This document shows positions 2,027 to 12,436 of a stretch of 64,000 bases of DNA, one piece after another. A program made the position numbers and the translations under genes. The first letter of the stretch is position 1; every line of letters begins with the position of its first letter. The DNA comes from Alloalcanivorax dieselolei B5 (GTDB taxonomy: Bacteria > Pseudomonadota > Gammaproteobacteria > Pseudomonadales > Alcanivoracaceae): positions 1,674,001 to 1,738,000 of the forward strand of contig NC_018691.1 in assembly GCF_000300005.1 (NCBI RefSeq), given 5' to 3'. The notes below the pieces were generated by a model, which had not been told where the DNA came from, made no database searches, and saw only the letters and a list, made by a program, of their open reading frames with translations.

Positions 2027-2051
2027 TGCCCTGAATCGGTACGCCGAATCG

Positions 2052-2066
2052 GCGCCGAATTGGTGC
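2052..2066. promoter_or_regulatory. NtrC-like enhancer site
   Basis: GCGCC-GAATT-GGTGC matches the dyad of NtrC sites (GCACC-N5-GGTGC) at 9 of 10 arm positions. It lies about 85 bp upstream of the -24/-12 promoter for the nitrate operon, a usual distance for a sigma-54 enhancer. Binding is inferred. Confidence 0.55.
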
Positions 2067-2151
2067 GCCTTCCCTGTTTTGGTCACGCCCGTGTCCTCCG
2101 TTTTTCTCTCCTTGCGACGCTAACTTTCTGAGCTGAAAGAACTTTTTCTAT

Positions 2152-2167
2152 TGGCACAGGGTTTGCT
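2152..2167 (+). promoter_or_regulatory. sigma-54 (-24/-12) promoter of the nitrate operon
   Basis: TGGCAC-N5-TTGCT is an exact match to the sigma-54 consensus, with GG and GC ten bases apart. Transcription should start about 12 bases downstream, near 2178, giving a leader of roughly 140 bases before nrtA. With the upstream NtrC-like dyad this predicts control by nitrogen limitation. Confidence 0.85.
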
Positions 2168-2199
2168 CTCTTCTTCCCACGAATGACAAACCGGTGAGG

Positions 2200-2241
2200 G
2201 TGCCGCCAATGGCGGTGGCGCGATCACGAGCAAAGGCGCTC
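2200..2241 (+). ncRNA. ANTAR two-hexaloop RNA (NasT target)
   Basis: Two consecutive stem-loops with six-base loops fit the ANTAR-protein target described for NasR/NasT/EutV leaders, in which loop positions 1 and 4 are A and G. P1: stem GCCGCC (2202-2207) with GGTGGC (2214-2219), one G-U pair, extendable by two outer pairs, loop AATGGC. P2: stem GAGC (2228-2231) with GCTC (2238-2241), loop AAAGGC. Nine unpaired bases or fewer separate them. The P2 loop end and 3' arm (2236-2241) are also the first bases of the terminator stem, so P2 and the terminator exclude each other. P1 can also pair in a triloop register (CCGCC/GGCGG), so folding should be tested. Confidence 0.8.
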
Positions 2242-2289
2242 AAGAACGTTCGGCGATATCCGCTGATCGTTCTTGGGCGCTTTTTTTTT
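2236..2289 (+). terminator. Intrinsic terminator (attenuator) in the nrt leader
   Basis: A 13-pair stem, GCGCTCAAGAACG (2236-2248) with CGTTCTTGGGCGC (2268-2280) and one G-U pair, is followed at once by nine T residues (2281-2289). It lies 29 bases before the nrtA start, so read-through is required for expression of the operon. Its 5' arm overlaps the second ANTAR hexaloop. Confidence 0.92.
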
Positions 2290-2317
2290 GTTCCGAAACA
2301 CAGAAGGGGTATGACGC

Positions 2318-3682
2318 ATGATGGGAATTCAACGGTGGTGCCGCCGGCTGGCGATGCTGGCGGGGTTGGTGGCGATACCGGCCCTGGCCGAGACCGTGGG
2401 CTGGCCGGAGAAGGCGGAACTGAAATTCGGCTTCATCAAGCTGACCGACATGGCGCCGCTGGCGGTGGCCTACGAAAAGGGCTACTTCGAGGAGGAAGGG
2501 CTGTTCGTGACGCTGGAAGCCCAGGCCAACTGGAAAGTGCTGCTGGACCGGGTCATCGACGGGCAACTGGACGGCGCCCACATGCTGGCCGGGCAGCCGC
2601 TGGGCGCCACCATAGGCTATGGCACCCAGGCGCACATCATCACCGCCTTCAGTATGGATCTGAACGGTAACGGCATCACTGTTTCCAATGACGTCTGGCA
2701 AGCGATGAAAGCGTCCCTTCCCGAGCAGGACGGCAAGCCGCTGCATCCGATCAAGGCGGACGCCCTGAAGCCGGTGGTGGAAGCCTACCGCAAGGAAGGC
2801 AAAACGTTCCGCATGGGCATGGTGTTTCCGGTTTCCACCCACAACTACGAGCTGCGTTACTGGCTCGCCGCGGGCGGCTTGAATCCGGGTTTCTATGCGC
2901 CGCACAAAGGCGATACCAGCGGCCAGTTGCAGGCGGACGTGTTGCTGTCGGTAACGCCGCCGCCGCAAATGCCGGCGACCCTGGAGGCGGGCACCATTCA
3001 CGGTTATTGCGTCGGTGAGCCGTGGAACCAGCAGGCGGTGTTCAAGGGCATCGGCGTGCCGGTGATCACCGACTACGAAATCTGGAAAAACAATCCGGAG
3101 AAGGTGTTCGGTGTCAGCAAGGCGTGGGCGGACAAATACCCCAACACCCATATCCGCGTGGTCAAGGCGCTGATTCGCGCCGCCAAGTGGCTGGACGAGA
3201 ACGACAACGCCAATCGCGCCGAGGCGGTGAAAATCCTGGCCCGCCCCAACTATGTCGGCGCCGACGAGGAAGTGATCGCCAATTCCATGACCGGCACCTT
3301 CGAGTATGAAAAGGGCGATATCAGACCGGTGCCGGACTTCAATGTGTTCTTCCGCCACAACGCCACCTACCCGTACTACTCCGATGCCATCTGGTATCTG
3401 ACGCAAATGCGCCGTTGGGGGCAGATCAGCGAAAGCAAACCGGACAGTTGGTATCTGCAAACGGCGCAAAAAGTGTATCGGCCCGATGTCTATGCCGCTG
3501 CCGCCAAGGCCTTGATTGATGAAGGCAAGATGAGCGCCGCCGATTTCCCCGACTTCGAAAACGAAGACGGCTTCAAGCCGCCGCAAAGCGAGTTCATCGA
3601 CGGCATCACCTATGACGGCCGTCACCCGAACACCTATCTGAATCAATTTCCCATTGGTTTGAAGGACGGCGACCGCCTCTGA
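2318..3682 (+). CDS. nrtA: Nitrate ABC transporter periplasmic binding protein
   Basis: 454 aa NrtA/CmpA-family protein that captures nitrate (or nitrite) in the periplasm for the NrtBC importer. The N-terminus is a Sec signal peptide with a basic start, a hydrophobic core and probable cleavage after IPALA. There is no lipobox cysteine, unlike cyanobacterial NrtA. The family core is visible: [20 protein letters not shown] near the mature N-terminus, [14 protein letters not shown], and [20 protein letters not shown] in the ligand-binding half. ATG 2318 is preceded by AGAAGGGG at good spacing; an adjacent ATG at 2321 is an alternative. It is the first gene of nrtABC-nasTS, controlled by the sigma-54 promoter and NasT-type attenuator. 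Confidence 0.93.
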
Positions 3683-3698: not shown

Positions 3699-4700
3699 AT
3701 GGTGACGATGACGCTACCGGACTGGCTGGCGCCCTATCGCGATCTGATGCGCGGCAAGGCCGGGCCGGCGCAGCAACAAGCGGTGTTGCGGCAACTGGTA
3801 TGGCCGCTTCTGGGTATCGCGCTGTTCCTGCTGCTATGGCATTGGGCGGCGCAGAATATTCAGACGTCGCTGGGGCAGTTTCCCGGCCCCGCCACTGTAT
3901 GGGAGCAAACCCAGGCGCTCTATCAGGAGCACCGTGAAGGGCGGCAGCGGGAAGCGGCCTTCCATGAGCGTCAGGAGAAATACATCGAGACGCGCCTGGC
4001 GCAGCAACCGGACTGGCAACCGGTACGCCGGGACTATACCGGCGCGCCCACCTTTTTCGATCAGGTCGGCACCAGTCTGATCACCGTGATGAGCGGCTTT
4101 CTGCTGGCTTCGGCGCTGGCCATACCGCTGGGCATTGTGGTCGGCCTGAGCGCCGGCGTGCACGCGGCGGTGAATCCGCTGATTCAGATTTTCAAACCGG
4201 TATCGCCGCTGGCCTGGCTGCCGCTGGTGACTATGGTGGTCAGCGCCGTTTACACCAGCAGTGATCCCTGGCTGGCCAAGTCGTTTCTCACTTCCATGTT
4301 CACCGTCACGCTGTGTTGTTTATGGCCCACCTTGCTGAACACCGCGGTGGGCGTGACCTCGGTGAGCAGCGATCTGACCAACGTGTCGCGGGTGTTGCGT
4401 CTTAATGCTTTCGAGCATGTGCGCCGTATTGTGTTGCCCTCGGCACTGCCGATGATGTTCACCGGTCTGCGATTGAGTCTGGGGATCGCCTGGATGGTGC
4501 TGATTGCCGCGGAAATGCTGGCGCAGAATCCGGGTCTCGGAAAATTCGTCTGGGATGAATTCCAGAACGGCAGCTCCCAGTCACTGGGACGCATCATGGT
4601 GGCGGTGCAGGTGATCGGGTTGATCGGTTTTCTGCTGGACCGGCTGATGCTGGCGCTGCAACGGTTTCTGGTATGGGACAAGAGCGCCGCGCAGCGCTAG
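3699..4700 (+). CDS. nrtB: Nitrate ABC transporter permease
   Basis: 333 aa inner-membrane permease of the NrtB/SsuC/TauC class, the membrane channel for nitrate import. A first helix (PLLGIALFLLLWHWAA) is followed by a charged, largely hydrophilic insert of about 70 residues (REAAFHERQEKYIETRLAQQ region) before the five-helix BPD_transp_1 domain. The coupling motif is visible as EMLAQNPGLGKFVWDEFQNG near residue 270. The length exceeds the usual 280-300 aa because of the insert. AGGAGG sits just before ATG 3699. The gene is 16 bases behind nrtA and 8 bases ahead of nrtC, consistent with one transcript. Confidence 0.93.
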   Translation: MVTMTLPDWLAPYRDLMRGKAGPAQQQAVLRQLVWPLLGIALFLLLWHWAAQNIQTSLGQFPGPATVWEQTQALYQEHREGRQREAAFHERQEKYIETRLAQQPDWQPVRRDYTGAPTFFDQVGTSLITVMSGFLLASALAIPLGIVVGLSAGVHAAVNPLIQIFKPVSPLAWLPLVTMVVSAVYTSSDPWLAKSFLTSMFTVTLCCLWPTLLNTAVGVTSVSSDLTNVSRVLRLNAFEHVRRIVLPSALPMMFTGLRLSLGIAWMVLIAAEMLAQNPGLGKFVWDEFQNGSSQSLGRIMVAVQVIGLIGFLLDRLMLALQRFLVWDKSAAQR

Positions 4701-4708
4701 GAGAAGGT

Positions 4709-5545
4709 ATGACAGCATTATTGGAACTGTCCAACGTAGGCATGGCCTTTGATACACCGACCGGGCGTTTCGAAGCCTTGAAGGGGGTGAACCTGAAAAT
4801 CGCCGCCGGTGAATTCGTGTCGCTGATCGGTCACTCCGGCTGCGGCAAATCCACCGTGTTGAATATTGTCGCCGGCTTGCTGCACGCCACCGATGGCGGT
4901 GTGATTCTGGATCGCCGGGAGGTCACCGAACCCGGCCCGGAACGGGCGGTGGTGTTCCAGAACCACTCGCTGCTGCCCTGGCTCACCGCCTTTGAGAACG
5001 TGGAACTGGCGGTGCGGCAGGTGTTCCGCAAACAGAAAAGCAAAAAGGAAATGCGGGACTGGGTGGCCTATAACCTGGAGCTGGTGCACATGGCGCACGC
5101 CATGGACAAGACCCCTCAAGAGATCTCCGGCGGCATGAAGCAGCGGGTGGGCATTGCCCGGGCGCTGGCCATGCAACCGCGCGTGCTGCTCATGGATGAG
5201 CCTTTCGGCGCGCTGGACGCGCTTACCCGTGCTCATCTGCAGGATTCACTGATGGCGATTCACGCGCAACTGGGCACCACCGTGATCATGATCACCCACG
5301 ATGTGGACGAGGCGGTGCTGTTGTCCGACCGCATCGTGATGATGAGCAACGGCCCGTCCGCCACCATTGGCGAAGTGCTGCCGGTGGCGCTGCCGCGCCC
5401 CAGGGACCGGTTGGCGTTGGCGGACGATCCTGTTTACCACCGCTGCCGGCAAAAGGTGCTGCGGTTTCTCTATGAGAAGCAAAACAAGGTCACCGCCTTG
5501 CCCAGCCGTCCGGACCCGGCGGCGCCGCAGCGGCAGCAGGCCTGA
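4709..5545 (+). CDS. nrtC: Nitrate ABC transporter ATP-binding protein
   Basis: 278 aa ATPase that powers the NrtAB importer. Walker A is GHSGCGKST, the signature region is [14 protein letters not shown], Walker B is [11 protein letters not shown], and the H-loop is [10 protein letters not shown]; all key residues are intact. It is a single-domain ATPase resembling NrtD/NasD and lacks the C-terminal binding-protein fusion of cyanobacterial NrtC, so nrtD would also be a fair name. An in-frame ATG exists at 4673, inside nrtB, but ATG 4709 has AGGAGAAGG directly upstream and gives the conserved N-terminus ([11 protein letters not shown]). Confidence 0.93.
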
Positions 5546-5686
5546 TCGGCGTCACGACGGTGCGGAAGAGGGCGCGGTTTTGCACTGGATTGGTGCGCTT
5601 TCCGCGCCCCGGTCCGTGCGCGGCATGAAAACCGGGCCATGACCGCTTGGCACAGCGGTTGCTACAACGGGGGGAAGCCAACCAAC

Positions 5687-6292
5687 ATGGATGCCGACAA
5701 GCCCATGCCATTGAAGATCATGCTGGTGGACGATCAGCCGCCGCGGGCAGCGATGCTTGAGCGGGCCCTGGAAGATGAAGGGCACGTCATTCTGTGCCGC
5801 CTCACCAGCGCCGCCGGTTTGTCACAGAAAGTGATGGCGTGCAATCCGGACATGGTGATCGTCGACATGAACGCGCCGGACCGGGATACGCTGGAGAGTA
5901 TGGCGCTGGTGCAGCGCGACATGCCCCGTCCCATCGTCATGTTCTGTGGCCAGGACGACGAGGACCTGATCGTCGCCGCGCTGCGCGCCGGCGTCAGTGC
6001 CTATGTGGCCGGCGAAACAGACCTGTCCCGGGTGCGCGGCGTGATGCGTGTGGCCACCGCCCGCTTCCGTGAATACCAGGCGCTGCGAGAGGAACTGGAG
6101 CAGACCCGGGAGGCGCTGGAGGAACGCAAGCTGATCGAGCGCGCCAAGGGCTTGTTGATGCAACGGCGTCGCCTCAATGAGCAGGACGCCTACGCCATGC
6201 TGCGCCGGCAGGCCATGAACACCGGGCAACCTCTGATCCAGGTGGCCCGTTCGGTGTTGGATTACGCCGATCTGTTGAAAGCCCAGGGGTGA
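5687..6292 (+). CDS. nasT: ANTAR-domain antiterminator NasT
   Basis: 201 aa positive regulator that binds two-hexaloop leader RNAs and prevents formation of the terminator. Residues ~9-125 form a receiver-like domain: acidic pair DD at 15-16 and an Asp at about 60 (MVIVDM). The conserved Lys after the fifth strand is missing (AYVAGETD), as in the pseudo-receivers of NasT. Residues ~130-193 are the ANTAR helices (ERKLIERAKGLLMQ, EQDAYAMLRRQAM, VARSVL). ATG 5687 is chosen because it gives the usual length; upstream in-frame ATG 5639 and downstream ATG 5705 are possible. It is followed without a gap by nasS. Its expected target lies in the nrtA leader at 2200-2289. Confidence 0.92.
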   Translation: MDADKPMPLKIMLVDDQPPRAAMLERALEDEGHVILCRLTSAAGLSQKVMACNPDMVIVDMNAPDRDTLESMALVQRDMPRPIVMFCGQDDEDLIVAALRAGVSAYVAGETDLSRVRGVMRVATARFREYQALREELEQTREALEERKLIERAKGLLMQRRRLNEQDAYAMLRRQAMNTGQPLIQVARSVLDYADLLKAQG

Positions 6293-6294
6293 CG

Positions 6295-7455
6295 ATGAAG
6301 CAAACACAGCGTGTCCGTATCGGTTACATGCCGCTCACCGACAGCCTGCCGCTGGTGGTGGCTCAGCAAGCCGGTTATTTCGCCGATGAAGGGCTGGAGG
6401 TGGAACTGCAACCGGAGTGGAGTTGGGCCAGCTTGCGTGATCGCTTGCTGGTGGGGCAGGTGAATGCGGCGCCGATGCTGGCGCCCATGCTGTTGAGCAC
6501 ATCCCTCGGCCTGGGTTGCATCAAGAAGCCGCTGGCCACGGCCTTTTCCATGGGCGTCAACGGTAATGGCGTGACTGTGTCGCCGATGCTGTATCACGGT
6601 CTGTGCGCGCTGGCGTCGGGGCCCTCGCCCCAGGACATGGCGGTGGCGCTGAACAAGCTGGTGGCGGCCCGTGCCAGCGCGGGTGACGCGCCGCTGGTAC
6701 TGGCGGTGGTGTTCCCGTTTTCCTGTCACGCCTATCAATTACGCCACTGGCTGGCGGTGGCCGGTCTCGACCCGGACCACGACGTCAAGCTGGTGGTGCT
6801 GCCGCCCTCGCAAATGGTGGATCACCTGCGGTTGGGGCATATCGACGGCTTCTGCGTGGGCGAACCCTGGAACAGTCTGGCGGCGCTCACCGGCGCCGGA
6901 CATTGCATTCTGTCCGGCTACCAGATCTGGGAAAACGCGCCGGAAAAAGTGCTGGCGGTGACCCGTGAATGGGCGGCGGCCCACCCGGATACCCACCGGG
7001 CTCTGCTGCGCGCGCTGTATCGGGCGGCGGCCCATGCCGATGAGCACCTGCAGGCGTGTCTTGAGTGGCTGGCTCACCCGGCCTGGCTGGGCGTGCCGGC
7101 GGAAGTGATCGGTGCGCCGTTTTCCCAGCGCCTGCCCGGCGGGCTCACCGGTCAGCCGTTCCCACGTCATCATTTTCATGTGTTTTCCGCTTACCAGGCC
7201 AATTTCCCCTGGCGTTCGGACGCGGAGTTTCTGCTCGGGGAGATGCAGCGATGGCGGCAGGGCCGTATCGAAGAGAAAAGCACTTTCGCCGCGCAATGCT
7301 ACCGCACGGATCTGTATCGGGACGCGGTGGGGGATCTGACCAATCTGCCGGAGGTGGATCACAAGCCGGCGGAAAGGCACGCCGGCCAGTGGCGGCTACC
7401 CGGCGATCCAGCGTCGGTGGAACTGGGGCCGGACCGGTTGTTGCAGGTGGAGTAA
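6295..7455 (+). CDS. nasS: Nitrate sensor NasS
   Basis: 386 aa cytoplasmic relative of NrtA. It has no signal peptide: the mature-type fold begins directly (VRIGYMPLTDSLPLVVAQQA). It shares with NrtA the ligand half around GFCVGEPWNSLAALTG and WENAPEKVLAV. In characterised NasST systems NasS holds NasT in the absence of nitrate or nitrite and releases it when the anion binds. ATG 6295 is preceded by AGGGG; an in-frame GTG at 6289 overlaps the nasT stop and is the alternative. The order nasT-nasS after the transporter is reversed from the more usual nasS-nasT. No nitrate or nitrite reductase gene follows in the window. Confidence 0.9.
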   Translation: MKQTQRVRIGYMPLTDSLPLVVAQQAGYFADEGLEVELQPEWSWASLRDRLLVGQVNAAPMLAPMLLSTSLGLGCIKKPLATAFSMGVNGNGVTVSPMLYHGLCALASGPSPQDMAVALNKLVAARASAGDAPLVLAVVFPFSCHAYQLRHWLAVAGLDPDHDVKLVVLPPSQMVDHLRLGHIDGFCVGEPWNSLAALTGAGHCILSGYQIWENAPEKVLAVTREWAAAHPDTHRALLRALYRAAAHADEHLQACLEWLAHPAWLGVPAEVIGAPFSQRLPGGLTGQPFPRHHFHVFSAYQANFPWRSDAEFLLGEMQRWRQGRIEEKSTFAAQCYRTDLYRDAVGDLTNLPEVDHKPAERHAGQWRLPGDPASVELGPDRLLQVE

Positions 7456-7492
7456 GGGGGGAACGGGACCAGGTTGCCCTCCATCTTGGGCA

Positions 7493-7600
7493 GCGGAGCC
7501 GTGTTATGCCTTTACGGGAACGCCGTGAATACGTCCTTGTAGGCTTCCGGTCGAACGTCCCTGTTCGACAGGATCCCGCAAAGGCATAACGCGGCTCCGC
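7493..7600. repeat. Large inverted-repeat element, copy 1
   Basis: Arms of 27 bases (7493-7519 and 7574-7600) pair with two mismatches and enclose a ~54 base core. The core resembles, in reverse orientation, the core of a second element at 7728-7833. No open reading frame with family resemblance lies inside. The interval 7456-7883 between nasS and metE contains essentially only these two elements. Confidence 0.75.
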
Positions 7601-7727
7601 TTCGAGGTAAGCGAAGCGCAGGAGTCCTTCCGGCCGTCGCCGAGACACCACGACAGAATGGAGTGGTTTTCCCTTTCCTGAAAGGTTCGTCATTGTTGGG
7701 GCCCGGAACGCGGCGGCTCACTCGAAG

Positions 7728-7833
7728 CGGGTCTGTACGGAGGCCTTCCGGGACCCTGTTTGACAGGGACGTCAAACCGGGAGCTTACAGGGATGTATTT
7801 ACAGCGATCCCGGAAGGCCTCCGTGCAGACCCG
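7728..7833. repeat. Large inverted-repeat element, copy 2 (opposite orientation)
   Basis: Arms of 26 bases (7728-7753 and 7808-7833) pair with one mismatch. The arm sequences differ from copy 1, but the core (about 7754-7807) is a diverged reverse complement of the copy-1 core, sharing segments such as GTCCCTGT and CTTGTAGG/CCTGTAAG. The layout of conserved core and private compensating arms suggests a selected stem. Confidence 0.7.
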
Positions 7834-7883
7834 TGCCCCCGATGGAGGCACTAACTAAGTCCCGTTAATCCACGATGGACCTT

Positions 7884-11644: not shown

Positions 11645-11702
11645 CGGGGTCGTCCCCGGAGCAGGCGGCGCTCAACGCCGCGCCCCGAGGTCGTCCTTGG
11701 GG
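11645..11702 (-). ncRNA. Guanidine-II (mini-ykkC) riboswitch
   Basis: On the minus strand two hairpins each present an ACGA tetraloop closed by G-C pairs, the hallmark of the class: upstream CCCCAAGG-ACGA-CCTCGGGG (11702-11683, one A-C mismatch) and downstream CGGGG-ACGA-CCCCG (11658-11645). The linker holds a GCGGCG/CGCCGC hairpin. The second hairpin ends about 8 bases before the ribosome-binding site of gdx, consistent with translational control by guanidinium. Confidence 0.93.
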
Positions 11703-11979: not shown

Positions 11980-12436
11980 TTTTATACGGTGTTTTGCTCA
12001 GAGCGCTGTTGTAGTAGCGCGGGTCGCCGGTGACCTCGTTGCCGATCCACGGGGGCAGGGGGAAGGTCTGGTCTTCGTGGTCCAGTTCCAGTTCGGCGAC
12101 GATCAGGCCCTGGTTTTCGCCGTGGAAGACATCCACTTCCCAGGTGTGGCCCTGGTGGGGAACCAGGTAGCGGGTTTTGTCGATGACGCCTTCGCCGCAC
12201 AGTTCGTCGAGCATGGCGCGGGCGTCCCGCGGCGGGATCGGATATTCGAATTCGCTGCGGCTGGCGCCGTGGGTTTCCCCCTTGATGGTGAGCCAGGCGC
12301 TGTCGCCCTTGAGCCGCACCCGCACCGTGGCCCGCTTGTCGTGGCTGAGATAGCCCTGGGTCAGACGCTCGCCGTCGAGGGTATCGAGAAAGGCACTGTC
12401 GCGGACCAGGAATTTGCGTTCGATTTCGATGCCCAT
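11966..12436 (-). CDS. CYTH-domain inorganic triphosphatase, C-terminus altered by repeat element
   Basis: 156 aa triphosphate tunnel protein. The N-terminal signature EIERKFLV (EXEXK) chelates the metal, and alternating charged strands follow (ATVRVRLKGDSAWLTIKG, EWEVD-like WEVDVFHGENQGLIVAELEL, GNEVTGDPRYYNSALS). Characterised short bacterial members hydrolyse inorganic tripolyphosphate; that activity is inferred here. ATG 12436 gives the conserved MGIEIERKFL start. The last residues TVDS and the TGA stop come from the terminal inverted repeat of element A, so the native C-terminus, usually a few residues longer and ending in aromatic or basic residues, has been replaced. The catalytic core is complete. 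It is divergent from ccmA. Confidence 0.88.
   Translation of the reverse strand: MGIEIERKFLVRDSAFLDTLDGERLTQGYLSHDKRATVRVRLKGDSAWLTIKGETHGASRSEFEYPIPPRDARAMLDELCGEGVIDKTRYLVPHQGHTWEVDVFHGENQGLIVAELELDHEDQTFPLPPWIGNEVTGDPRYYNSALSKTPYKTVDS

Follow-up and report, generated by a model that had tools for sequence, protein, structure and literature searches.

The nrtABC-nasTS Locus

The window, i.e., the whole stretch of 64,000 nucleotides that was analysed, corresponds to positions 1674001–1738000 of the Alloalcanivorax dieselolei genome, which consists of one 4.93 Mb contig. It carries the genes of a nitrate ABC transporter, followed on the same strand by genes for an ANTAR regulator and a nitrate sensor:

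2318–3682, plus strand: nrtA, nitrate-binding protein of the transporter
3699–4700, plus strand: nrtB, permease
4709–5545, plus strand: nrtC, ATPase (the open frame starts at 4673)
5687–6292, plus strand: nasT, receiver and ANTAR domain
6289–7455, plus strand: nasS, NrtA-like nitrate sensor, signal peptide not evident by eye

The ANTAR domain of NasT was matched with 73 bits, and over its length the protein could be aligned with 1s8n, a putative antiterminator, as well as with EutV (6wsh/6ww6), for which a complex with RNA has been solved according to the available part of PMC8934654. As read from the alignment, with a chain numbering offset of two, EutV residues Tyr164, Arg168, Met172 and Asn173 are kept in NasT; Arg175 and Arg177, which make RNA-backbone contacts in EutV (residue numbers from the available part of PMC8934654), are not conserved. 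NasS matches NrtA and the C-terminal part of nitrate-transport ATP-binding proteins. The accessible text of PMC3795266 describes NasS as lacking a signal peptide, like the NasS found here. The genome also encodes NtrC (749 bits).

Two further structured elements were noticed in the window. Downstream of nasS, positions 7480–7840 hold two long hairpins (arms 7492–7519/7574–7601 and 7728–7753/7808–7833) and belong to a dispersed repeat: 60 pieces of the genome match it when self and inverted matches are counted, and four of them are near full length. On the minus strand, a guanidine-II riboswitch (11645–11702; 32.7 bits with a gathering score of 32) overlaps the beginning of a reading frame whose product looks, by eye, like a small multidrug-resistance-type exporter.

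Anatomy of the nrtABC Leader

Ahead of nrtABC, positions 2152–2290 comprise a sigma-54 promoter, a two-hexaloop RNA and a terminator. These elements and two candidate sites upstream of them are:

2051–2067, plus strand: weak NtrC-like dyad, GGCGCC-GAATT-GGTGCG, 3 mismatches in 12 positions
2121–2133, plus strand: candidate IHF-like site, TAA-N4-CTGAG
2152–2167, plus strand: sigma-54 promoter, TGGCAC-AGGGT-TTGCT, by direct reading
2200–2221, plus strand: P1 hexaloop hairpin, stem 2200–2207/2214–2221, loop AAUGGC at 2208–2213 with A1 and G4
2228–2241, plus strand: P2 hexaloop hairpin, GAGC-AAAGGC-GCUC, loop 2232–2237 with A1 and G4
2236–2290, plus strand: intrinsic terminator, 13-pair stem 2236–2248/2268–2280 with an inner hairpin, T9 at 2281–2289, mutually exclusive with P2

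The exact pattern TGGCAC-N5-TTGCT occurs twice in the window, and three matches were counted when one mismatch was allowed (1.7 expected). Genome-wide, TGGCAY-N5-TTGCW was found 22 times as compared to 10 times for the backwards pattern. A scan for sigma-70 promoters was uninformative. From the sigma-54 promoter, transcription is predicted to start near position 2178. The TAA and TGA of the element at 2121–2133, which sits between the upstream region and the promoter, are kept in 14 of 14 aligned family sequences; its label rests on a consensus that we take to be that of IHF.

The 140-nt leader folds with −64.3 kcal/mol as compared to −43.3 kcal/mol (sd 3.9) for shuffled sequences, and none of 200 shuffles reached an energy as low. 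The minimum fold of the full leader consists of P1 and the terminator. In folds of growing transcripts, P1 and P2 were present together at every length tried from 2241 to 2272, and by 2280 the terminator, which has bases 2236–2241 in common with P2, had replaced the latter. The computed stabilities are −4.0 kcal/mol for P2 alone and about −37 kcal/mol for the terminator. Judging from this fold order and these stabilities, the leader should terminate unless P2 is held.

An earlier note on this DNA, made from the sequence alone, had described a perfect TGGCAC-N5-TTGCT promoter, two hexaloops with A1 and G4, a P2 stem sharing 2236–2241 with a 13-pair terminator followed by nine T residues, and NasT and NasS encoded next to the leader. 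The promoter was recovered at 2152–2167, the overlap has exactly these coordinates, the two genes lie where they were said to lie, and the hexaloops were confirmed by direct reading and by relatives. The NtrC-like dyad at 2051–2067, to which the note had also pointed, gained no support. With its three mismatches, scored by a consensus that presumably represents NtrC, it belongs to a class of equally poor matches that number 91 in the window, with 100 expected, i.e., chance level. It is identical in the aligned relatives of the same genus, but the whole region is near-identical there. Since the dyad is no better than chance, it was dropped as evidence for NtrC control.

Covariation Supports the Hexaloop Register of P1

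A set of 81 loci comprised the window and a further 80 nrtA loci. P1, P2 and an overlapping terminator were found in 23 of the 81 upstream regions, as compared to 0 of 405 dinucleotide shuffles and 0 of 400 random 840-nt chunks of window positions 12000–63000. P2 with a terminator was found in 35 loci and in 6 of 405 shuffles in a first scan, in which the hairpin chosen as P2 was really P1 in some loci (e.g., L005, L020, L060). A second scan, in which this was corrected and looser stems were used, gave P2 with a terminator in 44 of the 81 loci, one of them doubtful (L039), and none in the other 37.

When P1 was not required, an upstream hairpin with an A1/G4 hexaloop was present in 20 of these 44 loci at a stem length of at least 4 pairs, and in 22 at a stem length of at least 5 pairs with one G-T allowed. 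Each of the other 15 letter pairs at hexaloop positions 1 and 4 was seen in at most 4 of the 44 loci. Two A1/G4 hexaloops with at least 5 pairs lie upstream of P2 in three loci (L038, L042, L084), as compared to 0 of 4400 shuffles. The leader of one further locus (L049) appears to carry four A1/G4 hexaloops in all, some with shorter stems. In the available portion of PMC8934654, it is argued that a dimer contacts hexaloops one after the other. If this dimer reading holds, extra hexaloops before nrtA would represent testable additional landing sites.

Covariation was scored on an alignment (A2) of 20 rows, 19 of them distinct, which remained from 24 after removal of four sequences (L023, L038, L049, L084) in which MAFFT had misplaced the 3' strand of P1. 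Under the two-hexaloop structure, 87.1% of the cells were paired (63.2% in shuffles), 61 cells were changed on both sides (23.9 in shuffles), and the hexaloop covariation score was 0.70 (0.25 in shuffles); none of 500 shuffles was as high on any of these three measures. Two other measures were less distinct, with 25 of 500 shuffles as high for pairs with both-side changes and 182 of 500 for further pair types. Since the rows of A2 had been required to have loops AA.G and 4 or more pairs in the hexaloop stem, pairs 1–4 are biased towards pairing. This selection bias is addressed by the letter-pair control, which is unbiased in this way, and by later family leaders with compensatory changes in P1.

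Taken by itself, the window sequence would also permit P1 to form a triloop hairpin with 5 pairs, at −8.1 kcal/mol as compared to −13.9 kcal/mol for the hexaloop, and the hairpins might then be due to chance or be a plain terminator preceded by such a triloop. The probability of this reading is close to nil, since the triloop register gave 55.8% paired cells, equal to the shuffled mean, whereas the hexaloop register covaries strongly. Shifting by three columns restores the hexaloop, and the window was one of just 2 sequences, out of 24, that could form a triloop with at least 4 pairs. The triloop register was therefore rejected. The earlier note had named covariation for the triloop register only as the outcome that would speak against it; the covariation came out for the hexaloop.

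Distribution in the Genome and among Relatives

A covariance model (R1) was built from A2. In the A. dieselolei genome, the window leader was recovered at E 8e-8, and no other match had an E-value below 0.8. The next four matches, at E 0.83 to 4.3, were not accepted as real; one of them (L086) lies inside a trpE-like gene by reading. The genome has further nitrate genes, namely nirB and a nasA operon encoding a NarK-like transporter, a NirB-like NasB and a NasA-like protein, with the NarK and NasA calls below the NCBIfam cut-offs. A sigma-54-like site ends about 50 bases before the likely start codon of nirB, and another, seen by eye, ends about 34 bases before the NarK-like first gene of the nasA operon. 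Sites so near the first genes leave little room for a leader. No two-hexaloop leader was found before either nirB or the nasA operon by R1 or by a hexaloop scan, the latter returning one lone 4-pair AAAGCG hairpin before nirB and nothing else. The search for the same motif upstream of nasA and nirB, as proposed in the earlier note, thus came back empty; as far as it reached, the genome has no strong target of this leader type other than nrtABC.

The NasT encoded at 5687–6292 is an ANTAR protein whose role as the cognate partner is suggested by its position. By reading, two AmiC-AmiR-like pairs (L002 and L003; G000:C1:2849069 and 4418858) represent further ANTAR regulators of the genome. The same leader could be worked by, or shared with, one of these two proteins: each of their genes lies behind an AmiC-like gene by reading, and A1/G4 hexaloops are a generic ANTAR target according to the accessible text of PMC3369931. 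This is extremely improbable, as the leader precedes nitrate-uptake genes, nasTS belongs to that cluster in each of the four genus members in which the leader was detected (the window, G018, G028 and G029), and nasTS is close to the leader in many relatives.

Across the family, R1 gave 33 matches in 29 of 46 genomes. In the own genus, the four genomes just named carry a match, which is lacking in the other 9 of 13. The closest named relative in the search is Alloalcanivorax xenomutans, whose NrtA is 96% identical. Alloalcanivorax venustensis (L006) has nrtABC and nasTS, but neither the hairpin scan nor R1 found a leader there. Counted from the nrtA side, 33 of the 80 nrtA loci had an R1 match upstream of nrtA when E-values up to 0.1 were accepted; 19 of these loci had contributed to the model. 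Of the 33 family matches, 17 leaders were examined for a sigma-54 promoter, and TGGCAC-N5-TTGC(T/C/A), with at least 9 of 11 consensus positions, lay ahead of all 17. These 17, all with nrtA, are the window, L005 and 15 of 28 further stretches; 14 were aligned and three (L134, L135, L146) scanned only. L005 and L129 probably stem from the same genome, which leaves about 16 distinct leaders and also affects the count of nasT promoters given below.

An nrtA gene was found beside the match in 22 of the 30 R1 match loci examined, the own locus included. In several others, a sigma-54 site precedes nirB/nasB-like genes; "nasB" matches of this neighbour-gene search stand for nirB/nasB-like genes, and nirB itself was not properly covered. 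The direct position before nrtA in these 22 loci argues against the idea that the terminated leader mainly serves as a small RNA, acting in trans or sequestering NasT, with control of nrtABC being secondary. In favour of this idea, the leader, about 110 nt long when terminated, should build up under nitrogen shortage without nitrate, and the related element P11 is listed as a Pseudomonas sRNA in Rfam. We regard it as very unlikely.

A Second Sigma-54 Promoter before nasT

Two further elements lie between nrtC and nasT:

5581–5597, plus strand: NtrC-like dyad, TGCACT-GGATT-GGTGCG, 1 mismatch (the window has two matches of this quality)
5648–5663, plus strand: second sigma-54 promoter, TGGCAC-AGCGG-TTGCT, perfect, 5' end 39 bases ahead of the likely start of nasT

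The nasT start at 5687 appears likelier because the open frame at 5639 begins before this promoter. A sigma-54 site (at least 9 of 11 positions, at most 250 bases upstream) was found for 33 of 51 related nasT genes as compared to 47 of 2550 shuffles (1.8%); the 51 were taken from 55 matches, four without a start or 200 bases upstream having been left out. As nasTS has this perfect promoter, its transcription need not run through the leader.

This bears on the view of the earlier note that the operon controls its own transporter. The part that stood is that nasTS adjoins nrtABC; self-control via one operon was not supported as stated, as nasT has its own promoter at 5648–5663. In the full form of that view, most nasTS transcription would be read-through initiated at the nrt promoter, and the leader would close a positive feedback loop. 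It is true that nrtC and the likely nasT start are on the same strand and 141 bases apart. A simple terminator scan listed no terminator between nrtC and nasT, a silence that weighs little because the scan overlooked even the long terminator of the leader. Against full autoregulation stand the perfect promoter just upstream of nasT, the similar sites before other nasT genes and the many relatives in which nasTS lies upstream of nrtA and its leader. Full autoregulation is thus considered unlikely, while read-through from nrtABC may add to the nasTS level. For Paracoccus, the available part of PMC5424462 reports an NtrC site upstream of nasT, mutation of which abolishes the up-regulation of nasT. 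This fits a separate nasTS promoter here. With such a promoter, the supply of the regulator would not hinge on its own read-through, which suggests a way for the switch to start.

Probable Relation to the Rfam Families narK RNA and P11

At the gathering threshold, Rfam gave zero matches in the leader and in the leaders of ten related loci. In a permissive scan, the leader matched narK RNA (RF03032) with 18.2 bits (E 0.21) and P11 (RF00625) with 18.2 bits (E 0.042), below the gathering scores of 43.2 and 70 bits, respectively. MicroRNA and streptococcal sRNA models with better E-values were taken as chance matches on the strong terminator stem. Since the weak scores of the window are bettered by such chance matches, the Rfam link does not rest on them.

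The narK consensus runs GGCAC...UUGCU, then CC-AACGGC-GG as the only stem, and then CGACAAAGACGUCG unpaired; these parts may correspond to a sigma-54 promoter, P1 and P2, respectively. The P11 consensus has UUGGCAC...CUGC, a hairpin with the hexaloop AuaGAA, and then GGACAAAGGCGUCC and a terminator. Like the leader, both models appear to combine a sigma-54 promoter with a hexaloop hairpin carrying A1 and G4 and with a P2-like sequence; the difference is that the window scores under both gathering thresholds.

Both models were searched in 369 genomes of the class. The narK model gave 16 matches in 15 genomes (L159–L174), with 2 genomes over the cut-off. R1, which had been built without narK matches, matched 13 of the 16 loci, and P1, P2 and terminator were present in 14 of them as compared to 0 of 400 random window chunks. 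By eye, the genes downstream are partly narK-, nrtA-, nasA- and nirB-like. ANTAR genes were found in 114 of the 369 genomes and in 13 of the 15 genomes with narK matches (hypergeometric probability 8e-6), each within about 10 kb of the match on the same contig. The two narK matches without hexaloops (L169, L173) belong to the two genomes without ANTAR.

The P11 model gave 12 matches in 12 genomes (L175–L186), one of them over the cut-off, and R1 matched 11 of these loci. ANTAR genes were present in 11 of the 12 genomes (1.5e-5), all within about 5 kb, and the only P11 locus without R1 (L186, genome G336) is in the only P11 genome without ANTAR. The descriptor of P1, P2 and terminator, weaker here than R1, fitted only 6 of the 12 loci, and the P1 that it assigned to L175 and to L178 seems doubtful. 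Three P11 matches (G071, G172, G382) coincide with narK matches, so that both tests overlap; because of this overlap and of the relatedness of the genomes, the hypergeometric probabilities are guides only.

Taken together, RF03032 and RF00625 quite probably represent NasT-type ANTAR leaders rather than RNA classes of their own, in which the first model bases would be sigma-54 promoter DNA, followed by P1 and P2. They would form one superfamily with the nrtA leaders, gated by nitrogen and nitrate and lying before narK-, nrtA-, nasA- and nirB-like genes of the class, some with at least three hexaloops. We know of no account of a mechanism for RF03032 or RF00625. Among the papers listed in literature searches, none dealt with narK RNA, but the Rfam link may already have been published; a search for papers that treat P11 and NalA as one element found none. 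Were the link true, both catalogue families would gain a function and a protein partner, and their structure models would be corrected.

Proposed Mechanism

The RNA anatomy of the leader, its conservation and covariation, and the promoter sequences are observed. On this basis, we consider it very probable that nrtABC is controlled by two signals in series, i.e., initiation by sigma-54/NtrC and antitermination by NasT, with nasTS transcribed from its own promoter. NtrC as the activator, binding of NasT and the response to nitrate are the proposed parts of this scheme. Against it count the 37 nrtA loci and the 9 genomes of the genus in which such a leader did not turn up, A. venustensis with its nrtABC and nasTS, and the lack of conservation of Arg175 and Arg177 in NasT. 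First, when nitrogen is scarce, phosphorylated NtrC, the presumed activator, most likely drives the promoter at 2152–2167, with transcription starting near 2178, and RNA polymerase would by default halt at the terminator (2236–2290). Second, as suggested by homologous systems, nitrate or nitrite would bind NasS and release NasT, which would then bind the P1 and P2 hexaloops of the nascent RNA. Third, by holding P2, NasT would keep 2236–2241 out of the terminator, as proposed by the same analogy, and the polymerase could proceed into nrtABC. The nasTS genes would be transcribed from the sigma-54 promoter at 5648–5663, so that regulator and sensor would be present under nitrogen shortage before nitrate arrives. 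Most likely, the switch lets nrtABC be read only under nitrogen shortage in the presence of nitrate.

The leader thus represents a cleanly readable and covariation-supported case, from a marine, oil-degrading lineage, in which both low nitrogen and nitrate should be needed before a transporter is made.

Comparison with Known Systems

The assignment of the leader to a known kind, the NasT/ANTAR antitermination leaders such as NalA of Pseudomonas, is well supported. As in ANTAR dual-hexaloop leaders, two hairpins with A1/G4 hexaloops and stems of at least 3 pairs are followed by an intrinsic terminator that overlaps P2, and an ANTAR protein is encoded in the genome. As in NalA-type leaders, a sigma-54 promoter lies directly upstream, a nitrate-assimilation gene lies downstream, and the genome has nasTS. 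According to the available part of PMC12830290, which names Romeo 2012 and Nie 2024 as the primary NalA papers, the NalA leader mediates control of nirBD in Pseudomonas by sigma-54/NtrC and NasT. The shared features are the sigma-54 promoter, the leader terminator, the antiterminator NasT and the nitrate sensor NasS. The target differs, being nirBD there and the ABC transporter genes nrtABC here, where the leader was not found before nirB or the nasA operon. A nasT deletion strain of Pseudomonas putida was unable to use nitrate (PMC7261876, in its available part).

In Paracoccus denitrificans, NasT binds the nasA leader and nitrate splits the NasS-NasT complex (PMC3795266), and a chromosomal hairpin I mutant cannot grow on nitrate (PMC3795266, PMC5424462), as stated in the accessible portions of these papers. 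Leader hairpins and a NasT system are common to both organisms. In P. denitrificans, however, the leader precedes nasABGHC and lies between nasTS and nasA, whereas nasTS is downstream of nrtABC here. Nitrate and nitrite transporters are already named among the targets in the available text of an ANTAR survey (PMC3369931). With the antiterminators EutV, NasR and AmiR, the system shares A1 and G4 in two hexaloops and the overlap of P2 with an intrinsic terminator, as far as the accessible text of PMC3369931 and PMC8934654 describes them. It differs from EutV in its expected mode of activation: EutV is controlled by phosphorylation, whereas NasT would be controlled by sequestration by NasS.
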